NCBI GenBank assembly: GCA_950295325.1
Contig: OX485806.1
Span: 9,612,001-9,676,000 of the forward strand
Reading direction: 5' to 3'
From: Polytrichum commune
Taxonomy: Eukaryota; Streptophyta; Polytrichopsida; Polytrichales; Polytrichaceae
Length of the DNA stretch: 64,000 nt
Of this stretch, positions 13,729 to 56,302 are shown one piece after another. The notes beneath the pieces were generated by a model that was not told the DNA's origin, did not search any database, and saw only the letters and a list, made by a program, of their open reading frames with translations. The stretch's first letter is position 1; the number at the start of each line of letters is the position of its first letter. The translations under genes were made by a program, and so were the position numbers.

Positions 13729-14052
13729 CATTCATGTTTACATACAACCAGTAGAATTTCAGAATATTACAACAGTACAATACAAAGAGATCAAGTACTA
13801 TGTGGCATCCATTCCTGTTTACATACAACCAGTAGAATTTGAGAATATTACAACAGTACAATACAAAGAGATCAAGTATTATGTGGCATCCATTCCTGTT
13901 TACATACAACCAGTAGAATTTGAAAATATTACAACAGTACAATACAAAGAGATAAAGTATTATGTGGCATCCATTCCTGTTTACATACAACCAGTAGAAT
14001 TTTATAATATTACAACAGTACAATACAAAGAGAATAAATACTATGTGGCATC
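13729..14052. repeat. 81-bp minisatellite, four units
   Basis: Units start at 13,729, 13,810, 13,891 and 13,972 and differ by a few bases. Because 81 is a multiple of three, long open frames appear on both strands (for example 13,622-14,068 plus), but these are artefacts. The array lies where the ORF1 intron should end. Confidence 0.9.
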
Positions 14053-14084
14053 TAGTTTATACACTTGAGGGAAGGAATACTCTA

Positions 14085-26975: not shown

Positions 26976-28345
26976 TGGAGGAAAATATATTCAAACATCA
27001 TAAAACATAAATGAATTTGTATGGCAAAATATTATGTTCTCATTAAATAGTCATAACAATGCATAACTCCAAATAGTAACACACACTAGTTGGGATAATC
27101 GATGTAGCTATCAACACATGTTACCATAAGTAAACACATCAAATGCAAAAGAAATAAAATTGGAAGCAATCTCTATCTAAATATGACTACCAACAAGCAT
27201 GCTAATATGTAGACTAGAGCAATTAGTCACAACAAAACACACCATTGTCTACCCAAGCTTGCACCAAAATTTGCACTTGTACTAAACTCCTCGTGGTGCA
27301 ACAAAGACCATATGGGTGTTGTAGTATAGCACATTCTCTTGCACTTGACATTCCTTGTCATCGTGATCAAAATGCTCAAACTCCATTGCACAAAGTATAG
27401 GTAAAGTAACAACTTCAACGTCATTTGCTACATGCATCAAATCTCCAAAGCGTAGTGTATTTTGTAGTTATTATGGTGCAATTATAACAAGTGGTGCATA
27501 ATGCAATTTTATCATATATAATGAATGTGTCACTTTTATGCAACAATATACTTTGTAGTAGCAAAATGTGGCACATGTTAGAATAAGATAAGAAATCATT
27601 TGACATCATTAGGGCATTTGTATTCATGAAAAAAATAAGTTTATTGAAACATTTTATTGTTTATGTATGATAATTTAGCCTTCAGAAGTTTGTGATGTGG
27701 GTTCTATGGGAGTCAATTTACATGAAGGGAACTTTGTGAATGTGTTGGGAACAATTGGGTTCTTGTTTGAAGTGTTGAGTCATGCATACTGTCAATTCAT
27801 GTTTCATAATTGTAGTTGAGATGCAAAAGTTACAAGAGGTCAAACTGAAGATTCTCCTCTTTAAGTGATCACATAGGCCTTCCATGTTGAATTATATTAA
27901 CTCTAAAGCTAAGAATGGGGAGATCCAATTGGTACATTGATTATCCCATTCAATGCATGCTACTATTTGAAAATACACAATGCAATTACGTTTTATGTAG
28001 GAGTTCAACTTTTACTAACGAAAGTTTAACATGTTGTTTGGACAATACATAACATAAATGACTTTGCTTGGTAAATATTACATTGTTATTGAGTAGTTAT
28101 AGTGTTGTGTAACTCCGAATACTAACACGCACTAAACGAGATAATTAGTGTAATTACAAATGGACCAGTTGAGTTCGAGAAATAACTAGTTGAAGTTCAA
28201 GACCTTAGGCAAATTGTCATGTGATATTTTGAACGTGTAATCCAATCTCATTGTGCCACATGTCTTTGTGATGTCCATTCTTAACCACCTCAACAATTAC
28301 ATGTGTCCAATTAAGAAGAGTGACCACCTAAAGGCCCACAAGGCA
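26976..28345. repeat. Repeat mosaic upstream of the first FMO gene
   Basis: Bases 27,000-27,130 and 28,010-28,165 match the MITE at 59,236-59,462 (taacacgcactaa, tgggataat). R2-type fragments lie at 27,815-27,905 and 28,200-28,345 (gagatgcaaaagttacaagag, gtaatccaatctca). No gene is seen. Confidence 0.55.
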
Positions 28346-28675
28346 GCTTTAAGCATTGGGTTGTTGGTTTTGGGATTGCGTGCAAACTTTGGGAGTGCCA
28401 AAGAGAGTGCCATGGCGATGGGATCATTGGGATGGGCATCCACAACAGCCTCCAAGCACCAATTGTGGAAGAACATTCTACCCCACACCTTCAATTATCG
28501 CCACAACGCAATAAGATCGTACTCCTCCTCCTCCTTGGATTTGAGTCCCACGAATTGGAGCACACAGCTCCGCAAACGCGTGACCGCATTCGCGAGTGGG
28601 ATGGGGGAAATCGGAGGTGGAAGAGAACAACTTTCAGGATTCGTGAGAGCTTCGCCGTCTTCTGCTGCCACTACG
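28346..28675 (+). promoter_or_regulatory. Promoter/5' leader of the first FMO gene, with an in-frame upstream ATG
   Basis: GC content rises here. The stretch aligns at its 3' end with the leader of the second FMO gene (tcttctgctgcca versus tcttcttcagctgcta). The reading frame of the FMO start codon stays open upstream through this region. It includes an ATG at 28,412 in a good context (gccATGG) that would add 88 residues rich in Ser, Thr, Arg and Ala. The second FMO gene has an in-frame TAA two codons before its ATG, so the extension is not shared. Confidence 0.4.
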
Positions 28676-28694
28676 ATGAAGGGCGATCAGCAAG
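28676..28694 (+). other. Micro-exon 1 of the first FMO gene (start codon)
   Basis: ATG AAG GGC GAT CAG CAA G, followed by gtgagg. It joins in phase to exon 2 after acag at 30,053 and gives MKGDQQGEDLR. The same arrangement gives MGDQGEDLR in the second gene. This shared design, with the same intron phase, is the evidence for the exon. Confidence 0.75.
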
Positions 28695-31600
28695 GTGAGG
28701 ATGAGATTTTTTACTTTTTTGGGGGGGTGGGGGGAGATTTTCTTTGGCTGTTTCAATTAAGCTCAAGTTTGCTGAGATTTGCACGCTTTTGAGTCGTTGT
28801 TGGGTCGGGAAGGATTTGGAATGCAATTTGTTCCTTACATGCTCAATGAATTTTTCATGGTGCTTGATGAGGAGGACCGAGGTTTTGGGTTTTGGATTTT
28901 GGGTGTTGGATGGGGGGATGATGAGGTGGTGATGAGCAAGGTGAGGATGAGAAATTTCGGGTAGTTTTGTTCGGTTGTGTGAATTAAGCTAAAGGTTGCC
29001 AAGTTTTGCACAATTTTGAGTCGTTGCATTGATATGGGTTGGGACGGATTCGGAGTGAATTTGTTCCTTACATACTCAATGAATTTGTCACGGTTTTACA
29101 TGAGGAGGAGGGAGGTTTTGGGATTTGGGGTTTGGGTATTGGAGGGGGGATGATGATGTAAACAAGGCGTGGCGCCCTTTTAAACTCTTTCTGGAATGGT
29201 GGTGTACGCCCTTGGGACCGCCACTAATTGCACTTATATGTAAATTGTTTTTGAGCAATTTTAAGCAGGAGGGTATTGGTTGAAATGGGATTTGGATGTC
29301 TTGTTCCATCCTGCCACATGTCTGGGAACTCCGATGTTAGAATTCACCAAACTCAAGAGAGTTAGGAAAAGGAATGTTGGATGACTTGGACGAGGTGGAT
29401 GTGTATGAGCTTGAGAAGGATCTGTGCTCTCTATGAATCTTCAGAAACTAAGGGAGGAATTGGCATGGAGTTGCTTCAAAACCAATATCTGCCTCTCCTC
29501 TACCATGCCACCCATTTGTTGCTTCTGTATGAAGTGTCATTTGATACACCTCGTTGGAATCTTTGAATCTGCCGCGCGTGGGTCATAATTTCAGAGCTCC
29601 CTGGACCAGATTCTGAGCGATCGGCAATTATTTTGTGCCAATTAAACAATCTTGACAATTCCACATAGGCCTTCCAATCGGTGGGTCCTACACATGTTAA
29701 TCCACATGAAATGGCAATGCAGTTAAAATTACTAACACAGATAGTCGTGTTCTGTTTTCTCTATGTTTTCAGAAAATTGATTGAGGCATTGGCATTGAAT
29801 TGCTTCACAAACATATTTGCCTCTCATCTACAAACCCATGTCACCTTCTTGTTGGAATGAACCCTCCTTGTTGGAATGTTTGAATCTGCCGCGCGTGGCA
29901 CATAATGTCAGAGCTCCCTGGACCAGATTTTAAGTGATAGGCAATAATTTTGTGCTAATTACACATTTTTGACAATTCCACATCCGGCTTTTGATTGGAA
30001 GTGCCCACGACAGGGTCACATACCTAACTTTGTGCAACTTGATCCATATACAGGAGAAGATTTGAGATGTGAAGCAACCCACACCAAAGAAGTCGAAGAA
30101 ATGCGAGTAGTAAAACGATCGTGCAAAGTGGCCGTCATAGGGTGTGGGGCATCTGGTCTCGTTGCAGCACGAGAACTTCTGCGAGAAGGCCACCAAGTCT
30201 CCGTGTTCGAGCAGGGGAACAGTGTGGGCGGGGTATGGGTTTACGACCCGGAAATTGAAACAGATTTGTTAGGGATCAATGTCGACCGGAAGCGTGTGCA
30301 TTCAAGCATGTACGCATCGTTACGGACCAATTTACCTCGAGAGCTTATGTCGTTCACAGATTTCCCATTTCTGCCCACAGAAAAAGAGGGATCCCAAAGA
30401 GACACCCGGCGGTTCCCAGGTCATCCGGAGGTGGCTTCTTATTTGCAAGACTTTGCGGAACATTATAAGCTTATGGATTACATTCACTTCTCCACTGTTG
30501 TGGAATACGCAGGTGTAAGGGAAATCGGAGAAAAAAAGGAGGTTTCCTGGAAAGTAAGGACGAGGCGATTGGGCGAGACAACAACAACAAAACGTTTGAA
30601 GGAGGAGGATTTTGATGCAGTTGTGGTCTGCAATGGTCACTACTCTGAGCCTTACGTTGTGCCAATTTCGGGTAACCTGATTCCTTCTCCTCTCCTAATC
30701 TCTGAGCTTCAAATGTGTGAGATGTTGGGTTGTTGTTGAGATTTTGTTCCAATTTTGTGGGTTGGGTTGAAGTCCAGTCAACCCTGGGTTGTCTGAATGT
30801 TATAATAAGGTGTGATTTGGCCCCACTGTGGCACTTCCAATTCTACAAACAATCTTGGTCATTGGATCGGATCGGGAGTTGTCTTGTATTAGATTGGATC
30901 GGGAACTGTCTTGTATTAGATCGGTCGGGAATTGCCTTGTATTAGATTGAATCGGGAATTGCAATAGTGATGGATCACGATGATTCTCATCAGAATTGGA
31001 GTTTGATGAGATGCAAAAGTTATAAGAGGTCAAAGTGAAGATTCTCATCAAGTGACCACGTGGGTCCTCCCAATTGTGATGTTCACTATTGAACCTAGAA
31101 TGGTGTCAATTGAATTTGAGCACCTAGTCTAATCTCAATGTAACACATGACGTCTTTTTGGTCTTCGTTGTCAACAAGCCTTACCATATACCACTTAAAA
31201 ATAGGTGTCCAATAAAGAAGAATGAACATGAAGGCCCTGTACCTTAAGTGTAATCCAACATAACTTCGGCAATGTCTTTGGCTTCTATTTCAGATCAGTC
31301 ACAGTTCGGGTCAATAGATGCCACTGCTAATATCACCTGTGGGAGGGCCTATGTGATCACGTAAAGAGAAAGAGAATCTTCATGTTGTTCTCTTAGAGCT
31401 TTTGCATCTCATCAAAAGTGTGATGATTCTGAAACTTGAATGGACAATCTGTGTGATTCATCACAGTTTCTAACCATCTGAGACAATTCCTGGTTCAGTC
31501 CAACGATCATAATTGTCTGCCCACAATAGGGCCACATACCTTAGTATCACTCTTGCTTCTCTTTATCAGCAATGCTGCGAGCTCTTGTTGATTTTTGTGG

Positions 31601-34600
31601 TGTTTGACGACATTCAGGTATAAAGGAGTGGCCAGGAAGGCAAATGCACAGCCATAATTACCGGGAGCCACATTCTTTTGCAGACCAGGTAACTGATATA
31701 TTTCATAACACTTTTGGGATTTAGCAGTGTTGATCAAATTTTTGGAAATGCATTCAGACGAAGTACCATGTAGGCACAAGATAAGCAATCATCATGTACA
31801 ATTTTTTTGGTGAAATCATTGAAACGAGAGAGGAGGTTCTTGACTAGGAGTTGCAAATGCTGCTCTGTGTGCCAGGTTTCGAAACATGGTGATATATCAT
31901 GTCGATACCTCAAGTATCTTTGGTAGATGTTTGTGTTGCACAATATCAAATCACTAGAATTAGAGTTAACCTTTAACTGAAAATGGCTTCTGGTCAGGAG
32001 TTGGTTGTTCTGCATACAACACCTTCCATGTTCAGTAAGTTTTTGGTGCATGCTTGGAGTTAGCATGGAGGTTTTAACGAAGAACATTCTATGTCGGTTT
32101 GAGGGTCAAACTCATTGGCATGCCAAGTGGTGTGAAATTGAGTTTGGCCCTCAGTGAACCAAACTAGGTTGCTCTTCATTCAAATTCAAACTCCACCTCC
32201 AAGCATGCAGCAAAAGTGGAAAGAAATCATTGGTGTTGTGTGCAAAAAAGCTAATGGAAAATCGTAGGGGACCAATTTTTGACGAAAAGTCCCACTAAGT
32301 TAAAAGATAACACTAATAATGTTATTGCTTTATAATGTCGTGCACTATAATGAGAGGCTCATTAGAGAAGTGCATATGTGCTTGTAAAAATATTTGTAAT
32401 GTGCTGATAAGTAATACACATCATTCGTACAAACCACGTCAGATTGTGGTGGTGATAGGGAATGCAGCCAGCGGTACCGACATTGCGAGGGAGCTCGCAG
32501 ATTTTGCAAAGGAAGTTCACATAAGTGGCCGCACGTGGAGCTCTAGTGTGGACTTCTCGGAGCCCGATGGTCCAAATGCCAATATCTGGCGTCATTCTTT
32601 GGTACGTTTGGCAGCATAGACTACTGCAAAGTAAATATCTTGGATCTTTGTGTATTGGTTTTATGTATGGTAAAAGAGTTCTCCTTGAATCCAATGGGAA
32701 TTTCGTGGGGTGTTGGTCCCCTATGATTTTTCATTGGTTGTTTTGCATAATCAATAATTTTTTTCCACTTGTGGTGCATGTTCAGAGGTAGTGTCTGAAT
32801 TGTAACGAAGAGCAACCTATTTCAGTTCATTGAGGGCCAAACTCACATCAGCACCTCTTGGCATGCCAAAATGAGTTTGATCCTCAATGAACTGATCTGG
32901 AATGTTCTTCACTCAAACCTCCAAGCATGCACGGAAAACTTGCCAAACATGGAAGGTCTTGTAATCAAAATAACCTACCCCCAAGCAAAAGTCATATTGA
33001 GTTAGAGGATAAATTTAATAGTCTGACAATACTTTTCAAGTTTTGAGTCTAATAAAAATTTCCATTTCCATTGGAATTTGAGTTTAATGTCCATACAATC
33101 TTGTTATAGGCATGCGCTTAATCAATGTAGCACTTGCTGGTCAGTGGTCGAGTTGAGATTAGTTCAGTATTATAAAATCGAGGCTGAAAGTGATGAGATA
33201 AGAATCTCAAGTTATCAGGTCAGGCATGGCATAAAGCTACTGATATCTAGAGGTCCTCAATAACTCAAATGTTTTGGAAAATGATTATGTAAAAATAAGA
33301 AAATGTTGAAGTAACATCATAAACTTCAATTGATCTCGTGATAATTACATCATTTTGTTAATCTCTTTTATTTTGTGCCACATACTATTACAAAGCAAAT
33401 TATTACCTAAGAATGAAACATACATGTATCACAGGATAATCGCATTATACACCACCTTTTAGAAGTTTGTGATGCTTGTATGAGTCTCTTTTCTGAAAGA
33501 ATGTGTGGCTGCAATAGGTGGAGTGTGCATGTGAGGATGGCATTGTGAAGTTTAAAGATGGAGGGTCTGTTCAAGCAGATGTAATATTGCACTGCACAGG
33601 GTGAGCAACTAACAGATGGATTTGTTGTTGGTGTAAGGTAGATGGGTCTTAAATGGTACTTCTCGTGACTAGCCCACTTCTAGGATATAAAAACGTGCGA
33701 TTAGTATGAGATGGTGAGCAAGTCCAAACCGAGGTCATAGCTGCTTTCCTCATAATTTTCAGAGCTCATATGCACATCTTACTCACTACCAAAGTGAAGA
33801 TTCTTGTGCTCATTAAGTGGTCATATAGGTGCCCCCAATTATGTTGATTACTGAGCGTAGAGTAGTTACCATACTTTGGGCATGTTGTCCAATCCCTTAT
33901 AAATACATGTCTTTTTGGTATCCGTTCTTGGAGCCACACCTAACCTCATACCACTCAAATATAGATGTTTGATTGACAAAAGTAACCAAATTAGGGACAT
34001 TGACCTTACACTCTTTCATGTTCTTAGTTGTATTATACTAGCTTGGACCCTTGTTCTCTCAACCTATTGCACCCATGCATGTGAATTAATATCCCGGATG
34101 AACCCAACCCTGTGCACCTATGCAACTATATGCCCATCCATGTGCGTACCTGCCACATGCATTTATGCCCATGTTCATAAGCCCCCCATGACCTACCACC
34201 ATGTCCCCATGGAGTGCTTAAAAAAAGAAGGATAATCTTTTTGTTTTAGTTGAATAGTCCTTCTTTGTCCTATTGCCCATGCCTTGTCGCCACCGTCGCT
34301 TCATGCGTGCTCTCTCCCTCTAGTTTCCCACACCATGCCCATCTTTTGCACTTGTAGTCCCCCACATTTCCACATTTATTTCCTCTTTTGGTCATAGGTT
34401 TGTTTCGGGGAAGGATTTTGGGATGTGGCCCTTTTTCATTGGCAAGCTAGTTGGACATGTGTCCATGATTTGTAGACTCCCACCACCATGAGTTCTATTG
34501 TATATAGATTTCCTCATTCACCTCCTAACTATACTTGCTCCAAGAAATGTTGATTACACTTTGGATATCAACATTTCAGTGTCCGTCTTTTGTGTATTAA

Positions 34601-37540
34601 ATCTTGTAGGTTTGGTGAACCTTGACATCTTGCTGTTGTTTCTAGTTAGACCCACTTTACATTATGGCCCATGGCCTTGACCATGAAATTTTGAGATTTT
34701 GAAGTGTTATGGTCTCCTGGTGTTAAGTTAGACCCATCTCTTTCAGGTACGCTTGACACAAAATCTAGCAGACCTTGAAACATTATTCAATCCATGTAGG
34801 TTTGTTCATCCATTCAAACTTCCTTAGTCCCTTAGGCTCTGAAGCTCTACTGTAAAGTGAAGTGGGACGGTCTTAATGTTTTCCACCAGTGAAAGGTTTT
34901 AGATTTAATGGGAACGGGCCCTCAGGCCTTAAGCTGTACTTCATGCTTGTGATTACATTGCAAGAGATGGCAGTCTGGATCAATTCGTCAGGTTGGATTT
35001 GCAATGAATCTTTGAGTAGTCTGAGATACATTTTTTGACATAGATGAATTGTTGGGTTGATGCACATTTTCAGGTATTTATATTCCTTCCCATTTCTGGA
35101 TTCAAATGGGAAAGTGTTTGTAGATGACAACTGTGTTGGCCCCCTATATGAGCACGTCTTTGCTGCAGCTTTTGGTGCATCACTCTCTTTTGTGGGGCTG
35201 CCATGGAAGGTAGATATTCTTGTTCTTGATCGCTCCTTTTTCCTCGCTTTAGATTGAGTAACTCTAAAAATCTGTTTCAACTATCTCCTGATCTTAATTT
35301 TCTTGTTCACTGGTTACCTATATCTGTAAGTGTTGTCCAAACCTCGATGCTTCCAAGCATATATTTTATACATATTGCAGTCATCTTTTAACTAAATAGG
35401 AATTTTCGTGAGGAGTTGGTCCTCTACAATTTTCCATTGGTTGTTTTGTATATAAAATCAAAAATTATTTTCGACTTATGGTGTGTGCTTGGAGTTAGTG
35501 TTTGAATTTGAACAAAGAATAACTTATTTCAGTTCATTGAGGGCTAAACTCATTTTAGCATCTCTTGGTATGCCAAATTGAGTTTGAACCTCAATGAACC
35601 AATATAGAATGTTTTTCGTTCAAATCTCCACACTACCATCTCCAAGCATGCACCAAAATCTCTCTGACCAAAAGTCATGTTGAGGAGTTAGAGGATACCT
35701 CCATTGTATTTCTTTCACTGGGAGTGATGGATCTCTGTTGTTTGTGTCTTCTACAGATATGGTGTACTTGTCTTTGTCGCCTCAAAGCACATTCTAAAAT
35801 TGCTGAATGTTTTGTTTGACATGACTTAAGAATGAGTGAAGTGCAGGTAGTTCCATTTCCAATCTGTGAACTTCAATCGCGTTGGGTAGCCATGGCATTA
35901 TCAGGCAGAGTGGGGCTTCCACCAGTAGAGGAGATGATGCAGTCCATCGAGGCATTTTATGCAAAACTTGAAGCTTCTGGCAAGTCCAAGAGATTGGCAC
36001 ACAATTTGTCCACCACTCAGGTTGGCTCATCCACTTTCATGAAAGCCTCAAAACCTCTAGATTATTGCATAGCCTGTTCTTTGAGCTTGTGGATGTTCTC
36101 AAAGCTCTTCTATGAAAAGCTTCTCCTCTGCAATTTCTTAGGTATGCATTGACATCAGTGTTATCCCTCAAGTCTCTCAAAACTTGAGAGGGTTGAGGGA
36201 GTTTTGGTTTGGTAGGGAGTTTTGGTCCCTTTTGACATGTTATGATGTTTGAGGGGTGTTCAAGTGGTGTTGGAACCCCCAATTTTGATGACATGAAGGG
36301 GGAGGTGATTGACTTTGGCCAAAAGATACATATATAAAAATAAACTCCTTGTCAAACTTTCAAGAGCACCATTATAGGAGTTCTCAAAAAGTTTGCCATG
36401 ATGGAATGCATTATTTTACGAATGTGTTTTGGCCAAAGTCAAACACCTCCCATTCATTTAACCAAAATTGGGAGGTCCGGCACCACTTGATAATAATAAT
36501 AGTACAAGTGCTAACAATGATGATGTCGTGCCATTTTCAATTGGTATTGGGCTCGTAATATTGATATTCATGTGTCCACACCTATTGGTAAAGCCAACTT
36601 TGAGTTAATTGATCATCTTTTGGACATATTAAATACCACCTCATCCTGAACTAAGACTTGAGATTTAACATTACATGCCAGTGATAACTTATCGAAAAAC
36701 TTAGTACTCTAAATATTGTATTTCGCGTCACCAATTCTTTTTGTCTGCTCAATACGAATTGTAAACTGCCCGTGTAGTGTCACCAACACTAAATGTAGAC
36801 CAAACATTATTTGTTAATCCTTGCAAAAAGAATTGCGCATAGTAGATTTACGATGTTGTAAATTACTGTCACTTATTGAGTGATTTTTCATCCAAATTTT
36901 AATCACCCATGACAATATTCTATTCCAGAAATGTTAGGATGCAGAATATACCGTACTTGTAAAGTTGGGATTACAGTACTTGTAAACTTATTCATAAGAA
37001 GTGGCATTAGAACATTTACCACGATGACACTACATGCAATATTCAGTGTTGTCAGTGGCATCTTACCAGTTTGCTTAACATCAAATGACACATCAAATGC
37101 CACCCAAGATTTGAAAGTTAACTCTATGCCACATTGGGTATGGACGTGTTGTATGTCTTTTTATTTATTTTCAACATTATTTTACCATTGACTTACCACT
37201 TAGTGTGTCTCGTTTTCTCGGAAGTGAATTTGGTCTGCCTTCATATTCTTAAAATTGGTTTTGGCTGTTGCAGTTTCAGTATGTTGACTGGCTTGCTGAT
37301 CAGACCGGCAGTGATCATCTTGAGACCTGGAGAAAAACAATTTATGAAGTGGCGTCGAAGAACAAACGCGTAAATGCAGAGACCTACCGAGATGTTTGGC
37401 CAGATGAGGATTTACACCAAGAGGTCTTGTCTTCTTTGAAGAAGAGGGACGTATTAAGAGGTGATTTATCCTCTTATCATCTGAGTCCCGGCTTTGAAGA
37501 AAAATTGAAAACAAAACATTGTCTACCTACTTCAGGATAA
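28676..37540 (+). CDS. FMO: Flavin-containing monooxygenase, GS-OX-like (first copy)
   Basis: It is predicted to transfer one oxygen from O2 to a sulfur or nitrogen atom of a small substrate, using FAD and NADPH. Exons are 28,676-28,694, 30,054-30,671, 31,618-31,688, 32,443-32,601, 33,518-33,600, 35,074-35,209, 35,847-36,020 and 37,274-37,540, all with GT/AG borders and matching phases, giving 508 residues. Motifs: FAD-binding VAVIGCGASG (GxGxxG at residues 36-41) with VFEQGNSVGGVW; the FMO signature W217-x-G-xxx-H-xxx-Y227 (EWPGRQMHSHNY); NADPH-binding VVVIGNAASG (about 238-247); and LHCTGY (313-318), the ATGY-like motif. The ATG lies in a 19-base exon. ATG 30,101 in exon 2 is a weaker alternative. 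Family length is usually 450-500. The substrate cannot be inferred; glucosinolate oxidation is known only for the Brassica members. Confidence 0.9.
28685..29160. repeat. Tandem duplication (about 246 bp x 2) in FMO-1 intron 1
   Basis: gatcagcaaggtgaggatgag at 28,685 recurs as gatgagcaag gtgaggatgag at 28,931, and the following 200 bases remain similar (ttgagtcgttg, ttccttacat.ctcaatgaa, gaggaggaccgaggttttggg). The duplicated block includes the exon 1 donor site, so a second potential 5' splice site lies at 28,940/28,941. Confidence 0.8.
29440..30010. repeat. Direct duplication (about 230 bp x 2) just before FMO-1 exon 2
   Basis: Segments at 29,440-29,690 and 29,775-30,000 share tgaatctgccgcgcgtgg, cagagctccctggaccagat and ttgacaattccacat in the same order. 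The second copy runs into the end of an R2-type MITE (gaagtgcccacgacagggtcacataccta) immediately before exon 2. Confidence 0.75.
30995..31555. mobile_element. R2-family MITE (both arms) in FMO-1 intron 2
   Basis: The left arm (30,995-31,260) reads in reverse and the right arm (31,340-31,555) forward, with the typical end gcccacaatagggccacataccttag. The same two-arm arrangement occurs in intron 2 of the second FMO gene (51,000-51,470). I infer the insertion is older than the gene duplication. Confidence 0.6.
31975..32310. mobile_element. Hairpin MITE (family H) in FMO-1 intron 3
   Basis: The whole element folds back on itself around gagggtcaaactcattggcatg...aattgagtttggccctc. The outer arms contain ttggttgttctgcatacaac and its mirrored form. 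A homologous copy occupies the corresponding intron of the second FMO gene (51,840-52,170). Confidence 0.7.
32690..33020. mobile_element. Hairpin MITE (family H) in FMO-1 intron 4
   Basis: Same foldback core (cattgagggccaaactca / atgagtttgatcctcaatga). The matching intron of the second FMO gene also carries one (53,335-53,690). Confidence 0.7.
33640..34030 (-). mobile_element. R1-family MITE in FMO-1 intron 5
   Basis: It begins ggtcttaaatgg.acttctc.tgactagcccacttct-like and continues through gttgtccaatccctta and tatagatgtttgattgaca. I see no counterpart in intron 5 of the second FMO gene. Confidence 0.6.
34647..34942. mobile_element. Harbinger-derived MITE in FMO-1 intron 5
   Basis: Terminal-like actttacattatggcccatgg and subterminal blocks (gacacaaaatctagcagacc, tgaagctctactgtaaagtgaag) match both the copy at 54,001-54,497 in the same intron of the second gene and subterminal sequence of the Harbinger element near 15,030-15,200. 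This copy is shortened. Confidence 0.6.
35395..35710. mobile_element. Hairpin MITE (family H) in FMO-1 intron 6
   Basis: Same foldback core as the copies in introns 3 and 4 (cattgagggctaaactcat / attgagtttgaacctcaatg). Intron 6 of the second FMO gene lacks it and instead carries an R2 element. Confidence 0.65.
36261..36490. mobile_element. MITE with about 70-bp inverted repeats in FMO-1 intron 7
   Basis: The left arm (caagtggtgttgg...ttgactttggccaaaa) and right arm (ttttggccaaagtcaa...cggcaccacttg) are mirrored. No coding capacity. Absent from intron 7 of the second gene. Confidence 0.7.
36715..37075 (+). repeat. Dispersed repeat in FMO-1 intron 7 (second copy 38,720-39,075)
   Basis: The two copies run in the same direction and share tgtagtgtca.caacactaaatgta, cttattgagtgatttttcat and aggatgcagaatatacc. 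Shorter related pieces lie at about 58,340-58,450 and 60,090-60,160. Confidence 0.65.
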
Positions 37541-44534: not shown

Positions 44535-47036
44535 GGGGGGACACTAAAGTACCCCCAACGAACTTTTAGGGGGCATGTCAGATCAAAAAAACAGGCTGCC
44601 CGCCCCCCCACGGATGTCACTCTTCCATCCATCGCGAATGACACATGACATAGGCGGATGTCATTTAGGTTCGCGTCATTCTGGACATGTAATTTGTCAT
44701 GCCGCAAAAATCGGATCTAAGACCCTTAGATCTAGGGATTTAGATAGTGGCGGCCGTAAAGGTCAGCCGTTAGATGTAGGTATGACTTGATCTACGGCCA
44801 AGAAGACTCGGTGGTTGGAAAGGGTAGTCCTCCGAAGGGAGCGCGGAGGCTCATTCTTTCTTTCTTTCTCTCTCTCATTCTAGTGGTTAGGACTAGACTT
44901 CTCTTTCACACATTCTTGTGGTTAGCACGACTCTTCTCTTTGCCCCCTCTCCATGTATGTAGATGCAATTAGTTGTTGAAGAATAGGAATAGAAATGAGG
45001 GACAAAGAGGTTTATGAGCCCTATGAATGTTGAATAACATGGTTTTTAAACCCTATGAATGTTGAATGATAGGGTTTTGAACCCTATTGAAGAGATGTGT
45101 TATTATCTAGTTGCATTAGCTTTAATATCTCAGGTTATTGGATTTTACTTAATGATCACTTAATATTTCCTTCCAGCAGTTATTGTCTTAGTCTATACAC
45201 TTTATAATGAATTACATGTCCATCTATGTCATTCAGTGTTCCAGACTAGTCATTCACTGTTTGATTGTCTGAATAACAGTCACCGATGTAATTTTGGGTT
45301 AAATGACAAGTCTCGGGTTGTCTTGCTTGAACGCAAAAAATTACTTGTCACTTCATCATTTGGCCCAAAATTACATCGGTGTCTGTTATTCAAACAACCA
45401 AACAGTGAATGACCGGTCTGGAACACTGAATGACACTGAATGACATAGCGTAAATTCCCAAAGGACTTGGGATGAATATTTTCACAATCATGAATGACAT
45501 CCTAATCATGAAAGACATCACAATTACAAATTACAATTACTATTAATCCGAAATCCTTTGGGAATTTACGCTATGGTCATTATGAATAACAACGTGAATG
45601 ACATAGTGTTCAATATGATGAAGGACTATACGATTTAATATGGAACGTGGTACTTTATAATGAATTATATGTTCATCTATGTCATTCAGTGTTCCAGACG
45701 AGTCATTCATTGTTTGGTTGTCTGAATAGTAAACATTGATGTAATTTTCGATGTCATTGTTCCGTCCATCGCGAACAACGTATAACACAGGCGGATGTCA
45801 TTCAGGTTCGCGTCATTCATGACATGTATTTCGTCATGCCGCAATAATCGGATTTGAGATCTGAGAGTTAAGTTACACTAGGTGCTCATTTGTCATTTGT
45901 GTGTGTAAGGCTCCGTAGTTCCGTGTTGTGATCTTCTTGGTATGCGCACATACTCTTGCTAGGCGATGTGCACACACCATGGTTAATATTGCAACACCAT
46001 CTATCAAAACCCTCAGTCTTTCACGATTAGTGATTAACTTCACTCATCTTTCTCTTGAATCATTTTTAAACTATCATTCATTGATCTAACTATTTGCACA
46101 TGACGTTATTAATAATGAATTACATGTCCATTCAGTGTCATTCAGTGTTCCAGACCGGTCATTCACTGTTTGGTTGTTTGAATAACAGACACCGATGTAA
46201 TTTTGGGCCAAATGATGAAGTGACAAGTAATTTTTTGCGTTCAAGCAAGACAACCCGAGACTTGTCATTTAACCCAAAATTACATCGGTGACTGTTATTC
46301 AGACAATCAAACAGTGAATGACTAGTCTGGAACACTGAATGACATAGATGGACATGTAATTCATTATAAAGTGTATAGACTAAGACAATAACTGCTGGAA
46401 GGAAATATTAAGTGATCATTAAGTAAAATCCAATAACCTGAGATATTAAAGCTAATGCAACTAGATAATAACACATCTCTTCAATAGGGTTCAAAACCCT
46501 ATCATTCAACATTCATAGGGTTTAAAAACCATGTTATTCAACATTCATAGGGCTCATAAACCTCTTTGTCCCTCATTTCTATTCCTATTCTTCAACAACT
46601 AATTGCATCTACATACATGGAGAGGGGGCAAAGAGAAGAGTCGTGCTAACCACAAGAATGTGTGAAAGAGAAGTCTAGTCCTAACCACTAGAATGAGAGA
46701 GAGAAAGAAAGAAAGAATGAGCCTCCGCGCTCCCTTCGGAGGACTACCCTTTCCAACCACCGAGTCTTCTTGGCCGTAGATCAAGTCATACCTACATCTA
46801 ACGGCTGACCTTTACGGCCGCCACTATCTAAATCCCTAGATCTAAGGGTCTTAGATCCGATTTTTGCGGCATGACAAATTACATGTCCAGAATGACGCGA
46901 ACCTAAATGACATCCGCCTATGTCATGTGTCATTCGCGATGGATGGAAGAGTGACATCCGTGGGGGGGCGGGCAGCCTGTTTTTTTGATCTGACATGCCC
47001 CCTAAAAGTTCGTTGGGGGTACTTTAGTGTCCCCCC
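44535..47036. mobile_element. Foldback element, 2.5 kb, with about 906-bp arms
   Basis: 44,535-45,440 and 46,131-47,036 are inverted copies of each other. Mirrored open frames in the arms are identical over about 400 bases, and I saw no mismatch in the stretches compared. The tips are GGGGGGACACTAAAGTACCC. Each arm has its own inner hairpin (for example 45,226-45,310 against 45,360-45,440) built on cattcagtgttccagac. The 690-bp loop (45,441-46,130) holds an older, diverged copy of arm sequence (45,650-45,870). No protein is encoded. No clear target-site duplication was found; the left tip lies 7 bases after the neighbouring MITE. Confidence 0.85.
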
Positions 47037-47513: not shown

Positions 47514-47526
47514 ATGGGTGACCAAG
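47514..47526 (+). other. Micro-exon 1 of the second FMO gene (start codon)
   Basis: ATG GGT GAC CAA G, followed by gtgagt; it splices in phase 1 to exon 2 after gtacag at 49,781. Only four full codons are contributed. Without it the gene has no usable start. Confidence 0.75.
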
Positions 47527-50500
47527 GTGAGTAAAAGAATCAAGATGCTGGAGTACAAATTCTAGGTTTAAATGCTTGATCTTCTGTTGCTCAGTTGGTG
47601 TTGATGTTGATAATGTTGAATTTTGGGGTAAATTTTTTAGGGATCTTAGAGCACCATATAGCAGATCTGCGCTGGTTTTGTAGCTTAATTTTCACTCTTT
47701 TGGGCTGAGTAAGCCCAATCCGGATGACAAAAGAGGGTCACTTTGACTTGATGTTTTCTTGTTGTGGGGTTTTCTTTGAGGCTCACTAATATCATCCCAT
47801 TCAGCATAGTGACTTCGGAATCTAAAAAGCACATCTCTACCCAAGTTTCATTGAGGAGAGAGTTTCTGATCGGTGTGTTGTCTTGTCACTGTCGCATTTC
47901 TTTTCGGCTGAGGAAGCTCAATCGGGATGACGAAAAGGGTCACTGTGACTTGGTGTTTTCTTGTTGTAGGTTTTATTTGAATCTAAACAAAAATTAGTAA
48001 GTAGATTCAACATTGTGAGTTCTTAAGTCAGAAAACACATTTCTGACGAATTTCATTGAGGGGAGAGTTTCTGATTATTGTGTATACTTGTCACTCCCGA
48101 ATTCCTTTTTGACTAAGGAAGCTTAATCCCGGATGATGAAGAGGGTCACTGTGACTTGATGTGTTCTTGTTGTGAGTTTTATTTGAAGCTCAACAAAATT
48201 TGTGAGTAAATTTCATCCTATTTAACATTGTGACTTCAGACATTTCTGACCAATTCTTTTGAAGGGAGAGCTCTGATTGGTGCGTAGTTTTGTCACTCCC
48301 GGATTTCTTTTTGGCTGAGGAAGCTCAATCCGGATGATGAAGAGGGTCGCTGTGACTTGATGTGTTCTTGTTGTGGGTTTTATTTGAGGCTAAGCAAATT
48401 TTGTGAGTGCCATTTGTGGATTGTGATAAAATTACACTGAGGAGAATTGTGATGTAAGAATCGGACATGGGATTCCAGAAGCATAGTTTCCATTTCCAGC
48501 TTACAATGAATGTGCCAGTAATGTAATAAATGTCGGTGATATTATTTTTGGCAAGGTCTTTAAGTTGATTCTTGGTAAATTGGAGTAGAAGGCTTTGTCC
48601 GAAGATATTAGGTAACAATGAGATTGGTGTCAACTGATAAGAGCGCAATGCCACTTGACCATGCTTGGCATTCATGCATGTATTTATGAAGGACCTTGGG
48701 TTTTGGATTTTATTCTTGATGAACGTAGAATAGGAAAAGAACGTCCTTATGCATCCTTGAGAATACCATGATGAGAGCCCCTCAAATTGTGTGCCACTTA
48801 CAATGACCCGAATGCGAGTTTTTTTGGTTGAGATTCTATCTGGTAAGGTCTTTAGTTGATTCTTGGTACATTGGAGTAGAAGGCTTTGTCCAAGATATTA
48901 AGTAATAATGAGATTGGTGTCAAACTAATGAGAGCGTAGTGCCACTTGACTATGCTTCGAATTCATGCATACGATTCTCAAGGACCTTGATTTTTGGAAT
49001 TTATTCTTCATGAAGCTAGAATAGAAAAGGACGTCCTTACGCATGCTTAAGAATACTAAGTATGAACGTCCCTCAACTTGTTGTCAGGTGAAATGGCCCG
49101 AATGCAAGTCTTTTTGGGTGAGATTCTATTTGGCAAGGTGTTTGAGTTGAGTCTTGGTACATGGGCATTGAAGGCTTTGTCCGAAGATAGACAGGTAGCA
49201 ATAAGATTGGTGTCAACTAATGACAGCTTAATCAATGCCACTTGACTATGCTTGGCATTCATGCATGTAAAATTATGAAGGACCTTGGTTTTCGGATTTT
49301 ATTCTTGATGAAGCTAGTATAGAAAGACAACGTCCTTACACATGCTTAAGAATGCTAACCTTGAGAGTCCCTCAATTCGTTGACAGGTGAAATAGCCCAA
49401 ATGCAAATCAGATTGATGTATTTGTGCCTTATGTGGTCACTCTTCTAAATCGGACACCTGTATTTGAGTGCTATATGGCAAGGTTTGTTATTAACAATGG
49501 ACACCTCAAAAACGCGTGTTGCAATGAGATTGGACTATGACGTGCTCAAATTATCATAGACACCACTATGGGTTTAACAGTTAACACAGATGGGAAGGCC
49601 TGTGTGATCACTTAAAGTGAAAGAGGATCTTCACTCTGATCTCCTATAACTTTTGCACCTCGTTTAGCTCTGATTCTGATGACATTGAAATGACAATCTT
49701 CACGATTCATCACCATTGCTAAGCGGACGAAAGAATTGTTGATCCCATGGGCGACGTACCTTAACTCTGTGCAATGTACAGGCGAAGATTTGAGGCGTGA
49801 ATCAACCAACCCCCAAAACATAGAAAAAGGAACGGGAGGCGTAAAAAAATCGCGCAAAGTGGCCGTCATAGGGTGTGGGGCAGCCGGACTCGTCGCAGCA
49901 CGAGAACTCCTTCGAGAAGGCCACAGAGTTTCCGTGTTTGAGCAACGGGACACTGTCGGCGGGATGTGGGTTTATGACCCGGAAATCGAAACCGACTTGT
50001 TAGGGATTTGTGCCAACCGACAACGTGTTCATTCGAGCATGTACGCGTCCCTGCGAACAAACGTACCTCGAGAGCTCATGGGGTTCCTCGATTACTCGTT
50101 TATTCCCAATGAAAATGAAAACGACAAACAAAATCGAATTGAGGGATCCCCGAAAAGAGACACCCGGCGGTATCCGGGCCACGCGGAGGTGGCATCTTAC
50201 TTGCAAAACTTTGCGGAACACTTTGGGCTTATGGAGTATATTCACTTGTCCACGGTTGTGGAGTATGCAGGTGTGTGTGAAATCGGAGAAAATAATGAGA
50301 TTTCATGGAAAGTGAGGACGAGACGAGTGGGCGAAAAAACACCACCAACAACAACAAGTTTGGAGGAGGATTTTGATGCGGTTGTTGTCTGCAACGGTCA
50401 TTACTCTGAGCCCTATGTTGCACCAATTCCTGGTGGGTTAACCTGCTCCACTTTACTTTTTTCCAAAGATGGATAGATACTTTTCTCTCTGCATCCACTT

Positions 50501-53500
50501 CTCCTACGATATGAAATCATGCAATTAGTGCGAGATGATTAGGAAATCCAAATCGTGCCCGTAGCCATTCACCTCATAGTTTTCAGAGGGCGAATGAGTA
50601 TCCTGTTGATTATCAAAGTGAAGAATTTTGTGCTCATTGAAGTGGTCACATAGGTCTCCCCAATCATACTGCCTTTTGAGGCCTCGAACGATTAGCATAT
50701 TTTGAGCACATAGTTCAATCTCTTTTAAACATATGATGTCTTTTTGGTGCCAGTTCTTAGACCTACACCAAATCATATACCACTCAAATATAGGTGTCCA
50801 AATTGTTGTTGTGTTCGATGTAAGCATGTCTACCTTAAGTACTAAGGTTTGTGGCGCTTTTGTATGCACTTTTAACTCCATGGACAATTTTGGCGGTTGG
50901 ATTAGATTAAAATCGTCTCATCCGGATGGCAATTGCAAGGATGAATCACAAAGATTGTCATTTCAAATTTCATTGGAGTCAGAGTTCCACGAGATGTGAA
51001 GTGGAGGTTTAAGACATCAAAGTGAAGGTTGCCTTTCTCTTTGAGTGATCACATAGGTTGGCCTCTCGATTGTGGTGATGTTAATGATTGGACCTGAAAT
51101 GGTGTCTTTTGATGGATTTTAAGCACGTAGTCCAATCTCGTTGTAGCACGTGTCTTTTTATTTGGTGTTCGTGTGTTAACTACAGGCCTTGCCATGCACC
51201 ACTTGAATATAGATGTCCAATATAAAAGAGTGACCACATAAGGCCCACATGCCTTAGACTAGACAGTCAGTGCAATTCTCTCTTTCTTATATTTCTCTGA
51301 TTTCTCCCACATTATGCCGAAAACATGTGAGCTTGTGTGTAATTGGAGAAATGACAATCTGTGTCATCAGAATCGCTAACCAGATCATGAGACAATTCCC
51401 AGTTTGATCAAATGATCAAAATTGTCTATGGAGATGGAAGTGCCCACAAAAGGGCCGTGTACCATACTTAATTTAAAGTTCCAGACCTTAATAAGAAATT
51501 CATCACGCAGTATTCTTTAGTTGAGGTGGCTCTCAAATGAACACTCTTATAAGAGTGCATTGCCATTCAAAAGTGGCAATGGATTTTTATGACTGACAAA
51601 CACAAAACTGCTGGACCAACCTCACTTCAAATCAACTCAGGTTGAGCTTCTTTCCCTTCTGAATCAGAATTTTGATATGATTTAATGGTGTGTGCAGGTA
51701 TAAATGAGTGGCCAGGAAGGCAACTACACAGCCACAACTACAGAGAGCCAAATACTTTTGCAGATCAGGTACCCAACTTCCTAGAATGAATGAGTTTATG
51801 GAATCGATGACGCTAGACTGCAATAAAAGGACACTATAGAGTCATCCTTTTATTCAACCAGAGTTTGGTAAGGAGTTGGTTGTTTTGTATACAAAACTCT
51901 TCATGGTCAGTAAGTTCTTGGTGCATGCTTGGAGTTGGTTTGCAAGTTTGAACAAAGAACTTATCGGTTCATTGAGGATCAAGTCATTTTGGCACGTCAA
52001 GAGGTGCTAAAATGAGTTTGGACCCCAATGAGCCGAATTAGAATGTTTGTTCATACCTCCACACCAACTTCAAGAATGCACCAAAAAACTTACTAAACAT
52101 GGAAAGTTTTGTATGCAAAACAACCAACTCCCGACCAAGACCCCTGTTAAATTACCAGATAACTCTAACATCCGTTGTGTCCTTCATTTGCTCCCAACAA
52201 ACGAGGCTGCAAAAAAAAGGTGGTATGCACAGATCTCTTTGTCTTGAAGGTATATTTTCACATTGATGTGTATCTAGGTTTCTTGTCTCAAGCTAAAATT
52301 AAACACTAGGTGGAGGATTACAAGTTAGATTGCACATTAAGGAGACCTTTGTTAATCCAACATAGCAATAATAGGGCCACCTATATTCGAGTGGTATGTG
52401 GTTAGGTGTGGATCTAAGAACGGACATCAAAAGGACATGAAGTATTTTAAAGAGATTGGACTACATGCTCGGAATATGATGTTAACCATTTTAGACTCGA
52501 TAGTCATCAACATAATTGGGGGACCTACATGACCATTTAATGAGCACAAGAATCTTCACTTTCACAACTATTGAATACGATATTCATATGAGCTCCCAAA
52601 ATCGTGAGTTTGGAGTTGCAGAACTTCTTCCTCCCACTAAATTGCAATGTGTTTTGTATCCTGAAAGAAGTTGGCGCAGAGAAAACAAGTCTTCAATTAA
52701 CATCGGTCTATCTAAGGTTGCTCAAAACCATGTCAGATTGTGGTGGTGATAGGAAATGGAATCAGTGGGATGGACATTTCAAAGGACATTGCAAAAGTTG
52801 CAAAGGAAGTTCACGTGAGCGCCCGTAAATGGCCGCCCGGCAGCTCAAATGTCGATATTTTCGAGCATCCATCTGGTTCACGTGGCAATATCTGGCACCA
52901 TTCAATGGTGTGTTTTGGTGTCCTCCCTTAATTTTTGACTGCATAGACTTGTGTGCATTGTTAAATTTTGACTTCACCTTCGAGAGCAGCAGTACACCAT
53001 TTTTGCTATTTAGTGTCGCTTACTATTTGGAGTTACACACCATGCTATAACTTCGTTCATACAATGTACATTGTTTTTACCAAGTCGATTCGTTCGGGAT
53101 CTAGGATGCTCAAACAACCCATACGCCTTTTGTTGATAACAGTTGAAATCTATGACAAGAATTTCTAGCATTGCGTGATTCCGAATAGCAAGTGACGCGA
53201 ACTACGATTAGCGGTGTAGTTGGTTTAGTCATATTTTGTTCCAAGAGTTCTCCTTTTCTTTCCCCCAAGCACATTGAGTTTGCTTTCTGTGTCTGCCAGT
53301 CTTAGGGTTTAGGGTTTAGGGTGATCCTTTTTAACTCAATGGAGTTTCTGTTTGGAGTTGGTTGGCCATGACATTTCCTTTGGTTGTTTTGCATACAATA
53401 TCAATGATTTCTTTCCACTTGTAGCGTATGCTCGGAGGCAGTGTTTGAATATGAATGGAGAGTAATTTATTTTTTGAGGTTCATTGAGGGTCAAACTCAT

Positions 53501-56302
53501 TTTAGCACTTCTTGGCATACCAAAATGAATCTTCATAAACCAATATGAAATGTTCTTTGTTCAAACCTCCACACTACCTCTGAGCATGCACCAAATAGCC
53601 TAATGAATGTGGAAATTAGTGTTGTATGCAAAAAATACCAGCTTCTGATCAAAAGTCATGTTGAGGTGGAGAATAACTCTAACTAATGTCAATGGAAAGA
53701 CTCGTGTTTGGAAGAGGATATTATCTTAGTTAGACACCTTATTGTGATACTCTACTTATTGGTCACAACGCAGGTGGAGTATGTATGTCAGGATGGAACT
53801 GTGAAGTTCAAAGACGGAGGATCGGTTCAACCAGACATAATATTGCACTGCACAGGGTAAGTGCAATTGGAGTTTGATTTTCCTCAAATTTTCAAACAAT
53901 TATTATACTTCATTTAGGATGAGTGGTTGATCAAACTTTCATTTGTATCTTGTATCAATGAATAAATATCACATAGGGTATGGTCTTGGCTCAGGAACAA
54001 AGGGCCAATTTACACTATGGCCAAGGGCCGTGACCATGAAATTGTGAGTGCCCTTGAAACTCATCCAAAGGCCATACCACAGAGATTTGAAATTGAGTTT
54101 GGAGTGGTCACGGGCCTTCAAGTGCAGTGTGAAGACATATGTGACCGGGTTCTCAACTAAATGCTATTTTATTACCTCCTATTCACGTGGGCCCTTCTAC
54201 ACAATAAGCTCTAATAAATCAAGGGTTGAGATTTTTGAAGTATCATGATCTTCCGCTTTTGTGTGAGACTCACCTCTTTGAGGTGGACTTAGACGCAAAA
54301 TGGGTAGACCATGAAACATTATCCATTGTATGCCATGTAGGAATCCATATAAGTTTGTTCTTCCATTTAAATTCCTTGGTCCCTTAGGCCCTTAAGTTCT
54401 AGTGGAAAGTGAAGTGTGACAGTTTCGACATTTTCCATTAACGAGAGATTTTAGATTTCAATGGTCATGGGCCTCAAGCTCTAGTGTAAAGTACCCTCTA
54501 AATTCACATTCCTTTTTCTTTTTGGGGGTACTTGCAGGTACTTCTATTCCTTTCCATTTTTGGATTCAAATGGAAAAGTGGTTGTAGAAGATAATTGTGT
54601 TGGCCCCCTATACCAGCAGGTCTTTGCCCCGGCTCTTGCTCCAACTCTCTCTTTTGTGGGGTTGCCAAAGAAGGTAGGCACACATTATTGATGTTTCAAT
54701 TTCTCATTGCTCTAGTCCAAGGTATGTGGGCCTTATGTGGTCACTCTGCTTCATTGGAAACATACATTTTGAGTGTATATGGCAAGATTCGTAGTTTGAA
54801 ATGGACACCTAAAAGACACCATGTGTTACTGCAATCAAATTTAATTATGTGCTCAAAATATAGACATCATTTTAGGTTCTCGTTTTTTCACACAAGTGGG
54901 AGGGTCTATGTGATTGCTTAAAGAGAAAGGAAGCATTTACTTTGACCTCCTATGACTTTTGCATCTACACTCCTAAACATCCAGAACTTGACATGACAAT
55001 TTGCATGATTCATCGCAATCGCTTCACACCGGACGAGAAAATTCCTGATTGATCAAATGGTCAAAATTGTGTGCGAGGTTGGAAAGTGCTGAGATGAAAT
55101 TCTGCCTGTCTTTGCAACAACAAAATATGGACAAACAGGTTTGTCAAATTCAATCAGTATCTAATACGGAGTAATCCATGACTGCATTGTGCTTTTCTTT
55201 TCTTCTCGTTTCGTTTGCAGGTCATACCATTTGTGCTTTTCGAGCTTCAATCTCGCTGGATCGCAATGGCACTTTCAGGCAGGGTAGCATTACCCTCGGT
55301 GGCGGAGATGCTACAATCAGTTGAGGCCAGCTATGCGAAGCTCGAAGCTTCTGGCAAGTCCAGAAGATCAGCACACAATGTGTTTGAATTTCAGGTGAAG
55401 CCTGGGCCTCTTTTGCCTAGTAAACTTGAAGCTCTTAATGGTGCAAGCATATCAACGCCATTCATCAGTCCCCTGGATCAACTCTTCAAGGACCAAGAGG
55501 CTCAATGTCCAGCCGATAGACACAATTTCTACAAGCCTCACCATGTGAAAAAAACATATTTCGGATATAAATTATGGGTTTGGAGCTTCATTTTGTGTAC
55601 TTATGTCAAGAAGAAAATAATAATACACTCATGTGTGAAATTATGATCACAGTAGTATTTGCATCCCAAGGGCACCTAGATTGTGTGTTTGAACCCATAT
55701 CAATCAGGATTTCTGAGTGATGTAAGCAATTCAAAAAAAAAATGCACTTGAAGAATTGGAAGGACCTTCATGACCATGTAATGAGCACAGGAATCTCCCC
55801 TTTTGATAATGATTAAGATATTCACACGAGCTCCAGAAATCATGAGGAAAGTGGCTACAGCCTTGATTTGGATTTGCTAACCATCTCATACTACTAATCA
55901 CGTGTTTTTCATACTCTCAGAGAAGTGGGTTAGTGGGACAATGTAACCATTCGAGATCCATCTCCCTCAAGGGTTTCATAAGCACGTACAAGGGTGTAAT
56001 TTTATCAGTTGTGTAACGACGTTCTTCATGTTCAATCAATCGAAACTAAACATTCTTGCCTTTGATCATCATACTTGTTCTCATTGCTATTTGTTCGCCG
56101 ACTGCAGTTTGCGTACTTGGACTGGCTCTGTGATCAGACTGGAAGGCATCATGTGGAGAGCTGGAGAAGCGAGTTGTTTCACGAGGTTATAAAATGCCGA
56201 TTGGAATTGAAAGATGCTTATGATCTAGACGTCATTGTCGAGAAGGAATTGTACGAAGAAGCCATGGCGTATTTGAGGGAGACCGAAAGGCTCAAGAGGT
56301 GA
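47514..56302 (+). CDS. FMO: Flavin-containing monooxygenase, GS-OX-like (second copy)
   Basis: Paralogue of the gene at 28,676, with the same predicted NADPH/O2-dependent oxygenase activity. Exons are 47,514-47,526, 49,782-50,432, 51,698-51,768, 52,737-52,907, 53,774-53,856, 54,538-54,673, 55,221-55,394 and 56,108-56,302, giving 497 residues. Four internal exons (3, 5, 6 and 7) have exactly the same length as in the first copy. Motifs: FAD GxGxxG at 35-40 (VAVIGCGAAG), VFEQRDTVGGMW, FMO signature EWPGRQLHSHNY (225-236), NADPH VVVIGNGISG (247-256), LHCTGY (326-331). Exon 2 has no in-frame ATG before the FAD motif; the position matching Met 30,101 of the first copy is ACG. The 13-base first exon therefore supplies the start. 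The C-terminus is 24 residues shorter than in copy 1. No lesion is seen. Confidence 0.9.
47680..48400. repeat. Tandem repeat (about 203 bp x 4) in FMO-2 intron 1
   Basis: The marker agagggtcact.tgacttg.tgt recurs near 47,735, 47,937, 48,143 and 48,344. Each is preceded by ggctgag.aagc.caatc.ggatga and followed by ttcttgttgt.g.ttttatttga. Confidence 0.85.
48540..49400. repeat. Tandem repeat (about 291 bp x 3) in FMO-2 intron 1
   Basis: gaaggctttgtcc recurs near 48,590, 48,881 and 49,172. Further shared blocks are aatgagattggtgtcaac, atgccacttgac.atgctt and tttattcttgatgaa. Confidence 0.85.
49415..49764 (+). mobile_element. R2-family MITE ending at FMO-2 exon 2
   Basis: Runs from gccttatgtggtcactc to gcgacgtacctta and ends 17 bases before the exon 2 acceptor. 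The same terminal sequence abuts exon 2 of the first FMO gene, so the element end appears to be fixed in this intron in both copies. Confidence 0.65.
50475..50850 (-). mobile_element. R1-family MITE in FMO-2 intron 2
   Basis: Contains cacttctcctacgatatgaa, gtggtcacataggtctcccc and accactcaaatataggtgtcc in the R1 order. Confidence 0.6.
51000..51470. mobile_element. R2-family MITE (both arms) in FMO-2 intron 2
   Basis: Reverse arm 51,000-51,255 and forward arm 51,330-51,470 (ending gcccacaaaagggccgtgtacc). The arrangement matches intron 2 of the first FMO gene. Confidence 0.6.
51840..52170. mobile_element. Hairpin MITE (family H) in FMO-2 intron 3
   Basis: Foldback around ggcacgtcaagaggtgc, with arms ggttgttttgtatacaaaac and gttttgtatgcaaaacaacc. 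Counterpart of the copy at 31,975-32,310. Confidence 0.7.
52350..52600 (+). mobile_element. R1-family MITE fragment in FMO-2 intron 3
   Basis: Contains gtggttaggtgtggatct, agattggactacatgctc and gacctacatgaccatttaatg in R1 order; the right end is lost. Confidence 0.55.
53302..53321 (+). repeat. Short interstitial telomere-type repeat (TTTAGGG)
   Basis: ttagggtttagggtttaggg, nearly three units of the common plant telomere heptamer, in FMO-2 intron 4. Short runs like this are frequent in plant introns and promoters. Confidence 0.8.
53335..53690. mobile_element. Hairpin MITE (family H) in FMO-2 intron 4
   Basis: Foldback around gcacttcttggcataccaaaa. Counterpart of the copy at 32,690-33,020 in the same intron of the first gene. 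Confidence 0.7.
54001..54497. mobile_element. Harbinger-derived MITE in FMO-2 intron 5
   Basis: Starts agggccaatttacactatgg and ends (reverse complement) agggtactttacactagag. The inner block cttagacgcaaaatgggtag and the segment gccatgtaggaatccata resemble Harbinger sequence near 15,025-15,090. It is the longer counterpart of 34,647-34,942. Confidence 0.7.
54715..55090 (+). mobile_element. R2-family MITE, near full length, in FMO-2 intron 6
   Basis: Left end aaggtatgtgggccttatgt; right end gatcaaatggtcaaaattgt then ggaaagtgct. Intron 6 of the first FMO gene carries a family H hairpin instead, so this insertion is probably younger than the duplication. Confidence 0.65.
55755..55970 (+). mobile_element. 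R1-family MITE fragment in FMO-2 intron 7
   Basis: Carries the right half of R1 (catgaccatgtaatgagcac, cacgagctccagaaatcatg, agaagtgggttagtgggac). Confidence 0.6.

Follow-up and report, generated by a model that had tools for sequence, protein, structure and literature searches.

Predicted Short First Coding Exons in Two Tandem FMO GS-OX-Type Genes, with a Possible N-Terminal Extension in One Copy

Related Systems

GSOX1 and the garlic enzyme AsFMO are placed together as S-oxidizing FMOs in the phylogeny described in the available text of PMC10682829. Group A FMOs are characterized by a motif written HCTGY or YCTGY, which the available part of the wheat survey states for flowering plants (PMC11046709). 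As far as their available text goes, the rice and wheat surveys describe variable gene structure, predicted localization, and the HCTGY motif (PMC9960948, PMC11046709). Nothing on GS-OX genes whose first coding exon is short appeared in the titles and abstract openings of the papers that the literature searches listed.

Two other described phenomena bear on the locus analyzed here. Microexons are widely missed in plant annotation; the survey in question, in the portion available, counts internal exons of 1–15 nt (PMC8831610). The FMO genes described below resemble these microexons in that their first coding stretch is very short, in a size range often overlooked by annotation. However, the microexons of that survey are internal, with introns on both sides, whereas the FMO stretch opens with a start codon, presumably with 5′ UTR before it in the same exon. 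It would therefore be a first exon in which just the coding part is short and which is presumably longer as a whole. The second phenomenon is that of the Arabidopsis N-terminal proteoform pairs, represented by the available text of PMC8770321. The likeness lies in nested in-frame starts and a presequence-like extension before a complete enzyme. In contrast to the Arabidopsis pairs, the arrangement here is a prediction from the DNA, and the extension carries no coding signature beyond that of GC-rich controls and occurs in only one of two copies.

Gene Pair and Its Relatives

The window is a stretch of 64,000 nt (C4:9612001-9676000) from the genome of Polytrichum commune, which was searched as 408 Mb in 64 contigs. 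It harbors two neighboring FMO genes, copy 1 and copy 2, each consisting of eight coding exons that join at GT/AG borders into an intact frame (Table 1). Read from ATG 28676, copy 1 encodes a protein of 508 aa; copy 2, read from ATG 47514, encodes one of 497 aa. With 332 of 480 aligned residues identical and a whole-gene divergence of dN 0.194 versus dS 0.742 (Nei–Gojobori count), the pair looks to be under constraint.

PF00743, whose curated cut-off is 22 bits, is matched by the two exon-2 frames with scores of 76.7 and 63 bits. Both proteins carry a FAD-binding GxGxxG near the N-terminus, KVAVIGCGASG in copy 1 and KVAVIGCGAAG in copy 2, and both contain ILHCTGY, that is, the HCTGY motif of Group A. 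Among PDB sequences, the best match of the spliced copy 2 protein is 6wpu_A (E 4.3e-132, residues 28–471), followed by a match at 2.8e-50. We take 6wpu to be the garlic enzyme, of plant origin; the match begins at its residue 22 and at residue 28 in copy 2. Judged by these features, both genes are of the FMO GS-OX type of Group A. They share with plant FMO GS-OX enzymes the Group A HCTGY motif, the FAD motif, and the PF00743 match, but the first coding exon here would hold only 4–6 codons. The product is predicted to be a FAD/NADPH monooxygenase, and we infer S-oxygenation by analogy with its relatives.

Only two good GS-OX-type matches, copies 1 and 2 themselves, are found in the genome. A search for a third GS-OX copy across it returned none, the next best matches being short stretches with E 1.2e-7 or weaker. 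Four other FMO loci of the genome align at 20–23% identity.

Table 1. Coordinates of the two FMO genes in the window
Feature	Position	Strand	Remarks
Copy 1 first exon, minimal coding part	28676..28694	+	MKGDQQ, phase 1; ATG AAG GGC GAT CAG CAA G then gtgagg
Copy 1 in-frame open stretch upstream	28412..28675	+	88 codons from ATG 28412; 5′ UTR or optional presequence-like N-terminal extension
Copy 1 intron 1	28695..30053	+	holds two tandem duplications
Copy 1 exon 2	30054..30671	+	FAD motif KVAVIGCGASG; ATG 30101 internal
Copy 1 exon 3	31618..31688	+	
Copy 1 exon 4	32443..32601	+	presumably the second dinucleotide-binding motif
Copy 1 exon 5	33518..33600	+	HCTG of the HCTGY motif
Copy 1 exon 6	35074..35209	+	
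Copy 1 exon 7	35847..36020	+	
Copy 1 exon 8	37274..37540	+	includes stop
Copy 2 first exon, coding part	47514..47526	+	MGDQ; ATG GGT GAC CAA G then gtgagt
Copy 2 intron 1	47527..49781	+	mostly tandem duplications
Copy 2 exon 2	49782..50432	+	FAD motif; no in-frame ATG from upstream stop to motif
Copy 2 exon 3	51698..51768	+	
Copy 2 exon 4	52737..52907	+	
Copy 2 exon 5	53774..53856	+	
Copy 2 exon 6	54538..54673	+	
Copy 2 exon 7	55221..55394	+	
Copy 2 exon 8	56108..56302	+	includes stop

Short Coding Start and Its Junction

The copy 1 stretch 28676–28694 reads ATGAAGGGCGATCAGCAAG and is followed by gtgaggat, while exon 2, from 30054, is preceded by atatacag. The corresponding stretch of copy 2, 47514–47526, reads ATGGGTGACCAAG and is followed by gtgagtaa, with atgtacag ahead of exon 2 at 49782. 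Both junctions are in phase 1, giving MKGDQQ/GEDLR in copy 1 and MGDQ/GEDLR in copy 2, and an in-frame TAA lies two codons before ATG 47514. Sequence, splice signals, phase, copy comparison, and intact frames are direct observations. They agree with the initial annotation, which had described the sequence and donor of the short copy 1 exon, the acag/G acceptor of the FAD-motif exon, the in-phase join to MKGDQQGEDLR, and the same layout in copy 2, with its junction at 47526/49782. That annotation also had copy 1 begin in a “19-base exon”. The coding stretch of 19 nt is real, but it is a minimal coding part to which the transcribed exon would add 5′ UTR and maybe more coding sequence. The upstream phase-1 coding exon is supported, while MKGDQQ is only the more likely beginning of the protein, five further in-frame ATGs, which that annotation does not mention, lying upstream.

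The frame of the FAD-motif exon in copy 2 is open from 49694 and contains no in-frame ATG before the FAD motif; therefore, either an upstream exon or a non-AUG start is needed. At the six other FMO loci fetched (of seven other family matches), an in-frame Met lies upstream of the motif in every case. The ATG-less frame of copy 2 is the strongest argument for the predicted short upstream exon.

Candidate donors closing a phase-1 ATG exon were scanned for in 28000–30000 (copy 1) and 47000–49730 (copy 2), with scoring weights that approximate plant frequencies. At a threshold of at least 3 bits, copy 1 has a single such donor, 28695, and copy 2 has 47527 and 48843; at 0 bits, the possible donors number 3 and 6, respectively. 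The donors at 28695 (6.24) and 47527 (7.58) are the top two among the 14 scored in the gene models. When the two regions were subjected to 4000 first-order Markov shuffles (exons up to 40 nt, donors of at least 6 bits), candidates appeared in both regions in 11 shuffles, and a pair sharing a 3-residue word appeared in none. These counts and the scarcity of competing donors uphold the earlier statement that chance is an unlikely origin of the shared layout. Since the two genes are duplicates of each other, the shuffle test argues against chance but leaves room for a common noncoding ancestor; in homologous copies, shared letters alone are no proof of coding.

Between the copies, the nine aligned codons at and across the junction show four synonymous differences and not one that is nonsynonymous, on 4.7 and 22.3 sites of the respective kind, and the gaps are whole codons. 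Random placement on those sites would make four out of four synonymous with a probability of ~0.001, for a stretch picked post hoc, after the alignment had been seen. When the comparison is widened to the first 22 codons of copy 1, of which 20 align, it yields 5 synonymous and 9 nonsynonymous differences (dN 0.21, dS 0.68), values close to those of the whole genes. The clean synonymous pattern is, in this comparison, restricted to the codons beside the junction. All of this conservation evidence comes from two paralogues of one genome.

Proposed Gene Model

In the proposed model, the first exon of both tandem FMO GS-OX-type genes would be mostly 5′ UTR, with coding sequence confined to its end: six codons in copy 1 and four in copy 2, start codon included. 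A long phase-1 intron would come next, followed by the FAD-motif exon. The predicted start codon is ATG 47514 in copy 2; in copy 1, ATG 28676 is the most likely one. In the resulting enzyme, the FAD motif would be preceded by about 30 residues. This two-gene model, with copy 1 most likely read from ATG 28676, is considered probable. The exon would be transcribed and spliced as modelled; like the position of the transcription start and the activity of the enzyme, this is a prediction from the DNA.

Any gene model starting at ATG 30101 would be corrected at its N-terminus, which bears on cloning, localization predictions, and annotation transfer. A short, separate first coding exon is nothing unusual, though automated annotation could overlook it, and the locus as a whole presents an ordinary annotation point plus one side question on the copy 1 N-terminus.

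Alternative Starts

A start of copy 1 at ATG 30101 in exon 2, the upstream exon being noncoding or absent, has in its favor that this ATG sits 8 codons ahead of the conserved KVAVIG. It would cost 22 residues, as had been claimed and as the spliced model confirms. However, copy 2 has ACG at the aligned position and lacks any other in-frame ATG ahead of the FAD motif; the codons adjacent to the junction differ only synonymously; and donor and acceptor are in phase in both copies. Such a start, already regarded as likely wrong in the initial annotation, is scarcely credible. The homology of the copies, whose 5′ flank alignment extends weakly past the ATG, would also suit the use of some other, unrecognized first exon, with the short ATG exon a homologous noncoding sequence. 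Against this stand the donors of the short exons, the two strongest of the gene models, as well as the finding of one further candidate of at least 3 bits (48843, copy 2) in the scan from 28000 and 47000 downstream. The differences next to the junction, confined to third codon positions or whole codons, also speak against another first exon, which is judged very unlikely.

The third alternative is a longer form of copy 1. The copy 1 frame is stop-free over 28241–28789 (183 codons) and contains six in-frame ATGs, at 28271, 28301, 28412, 28418, 28601, and finally 28676, with no stop before the exon. Relative to 28676, the protein would be 88 residues longer from 28412, 86 from 28418, and 25 from 28601. 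Three of the five upstream ATGs have G at −3 and G at +4, while 28676 has A and A; the contexts are gccATGG at 28412 and gggATGG at 28601. If transcription began upstream of 28412, the extension would be hard to avoid because a scanning ribosome meets ATG 28412 before 28676. MKGDQQ is opened by the first AUG only if transcription begins downstream of 28601, i.e., if the 5′ UTR is under about 75 nt. Copy 1 may thus be translated from ATG 28412 (or 28418/28601) with a first coding exon of up to 283 nt, the 88 extra residues serving as a presequence for an organelle. Through leaky scanning, or from a second transcription start, the gene may in addition produce a shorter protein that begins at 28676 and is cytosolic, which would amount to dual targeting. 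When the local sequence is modelled to second order, p is ~0.039 for 183 open codons but ~0.22 for the 88 codons at issue. In the sampled plus-strand positions of the window, 183-codon openness occurs at 32 of 9065 and 88-codon openness at 212 of 9106. Besides the gccATGG context at 28412, the composition of the extension resembles that of a presequence. The N-terminus of organelle presequences is basic, hydroxylated, and acid-free; the first 42 residues of the 28412 form lack acidic residues and contain 4 K/R and 11 S/T, including RHNAIRSYSSSS, the first acidic residue being at position 43; taken alone, this is weak evidence. Precedents exist in the documented dual localization of Arabidopsis proteins via alternative starts (PMC8770321) and in 11 rice FMO proteins that software predicts as chloroplast (PMC9960948), both as given in the available text of these papers. 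The codon score of the extension (976 training codons) exceeds that of 97.4% of 1535 unselected control windows. However, it is ordinary against GC-rich noncoding windows, of which 28% of 465 score as high; with 2133 training codons, 31% of 216 GC-rich controls do so. Of the coding pieces, 3 of 75 score as low, in a control that is optimistic in that its positive pieces come from the training genes, and the proper frame is the lowest scoring of the three in both codon tests. Furthermore, no matching open frame ends at the copy 2 ATG, and the extension has no relative among PDB sequences (best E 0.34). The codon test is not decisive because the composition of presequences is unusual, and presequences need not be conserved. 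Translation from 28412 (or 28418/28601) is considered unlikely. A fuller scenario is also unlikely: an upstream AUG in frame would have let copy 1 turn its 5′ UTR into an 88-residue organelle-targeting presequence, and an S-oxygenase that is normally cytosolic would thereby be dual-targeted by start choice, while copy 2 retained only the short start. The upstream stretch of copy 1 is favored as 5′ UTR, with an N-extended isoform as the minority reading. The gene model appears sound in its essential part, the short form of copy 1 being favored over the extended one. If an upstream in-frame start were used, the pair would be a modest natural experiment on the emergence of a presequence from 5′ UTR following gene duplication.

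The 2133 training codons were taken from the FMO loci L001, L003, L004, L005, and L007 and both window genes; L008 was omitted as a presumed near-copy of L007, on a comparison of the N-terminus alone.

5′ Flanks of the Two Copies

At the DNA level, the 5′ flanks of the two copies align globally with a score of 85, compared with a maximum of 80 in 500 shuffles. Their local alignment scores 58 (shuffle 95th percentile 47, maximum 64). Protein conservation upstream of both ATGs was looked for, and no frame pair rose above its shuffle control; this result gives no support to the extension being a protein segment common to both copies. The ideas that another gene donated the extension as a presequence, or that it is a mobile element, found no support either, as own-genome searches with the 94-aa protein and the 361-nt DNA each gave only the window itself among the best candidates scored.

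In the local alignment, a pyrimidine-rich run at TCC repeats of copy 1, at about 28520–28540, lies opposite the TCATTCTTCTT run of copy 2; this could equally be a promoter or leader feature. Out-of-frame ATG frames of ~90 codons overlap each FMO start, at 28432–28698 in copy 1 and 47237–47521 in copy 2, and protein conservation between these two frames does not go beyond the shuffle control.

Introns and Repeats

Intron 1 of copy 1 contains two separate tandem duplications, 28682–29160 and 29421–29983, with copies about 227–246 nt and about 330 nt apart, respectively. Next to the first of them, the donor region of exon 1 recurs at 28928–28957, with GGTGATGAGCAAGGTGAGGATGAG at 28928. This second donor was rejected as the end of a coding exon, the frame from 28412 or 28676 reaching a stop at 28790. 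Intron 1 of copy 2 harbors, at 47696–49409, tandem duplications, ~75–88% alike, of two other units of about 205 nt and about 290 nt. The copy 2 units gave no match to those of copy 1 at the same threshold; thus, tandem duplication seems to have lengthened the first intron of each copy separately.

Pieces of a dispersed repeat occupy 27772–28340, with matches at ~30990–31464, 49429–49661, 51214–51249, and 54725–55012. The repeat at 27772–28340 ends ~70 nt before ATG 28412, in the likely promoter of copy 1. A short run of TTTAGGG units at 53300–53322, in intron 4 of copy 2, is taken to be telomere-like.

Other Features of the Window

A transposase-like frame on the plus strand (12529–13026) matches DDE_Tnp_4 with E 7.5e-16, and a Myb/SANT-like frame on the minus strand (13285–13731) gives a weak match under the Pfam cut-off. 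The transposase-like region, 11215–13731, is presumably of the PIF/Harbinger type. A tandem repeat of ~81 nt at 13574–14068 is open on the plus strand and, read by eye, encodes repeats like VYIQPVEFENITTVQYKEIKYYVASIP.
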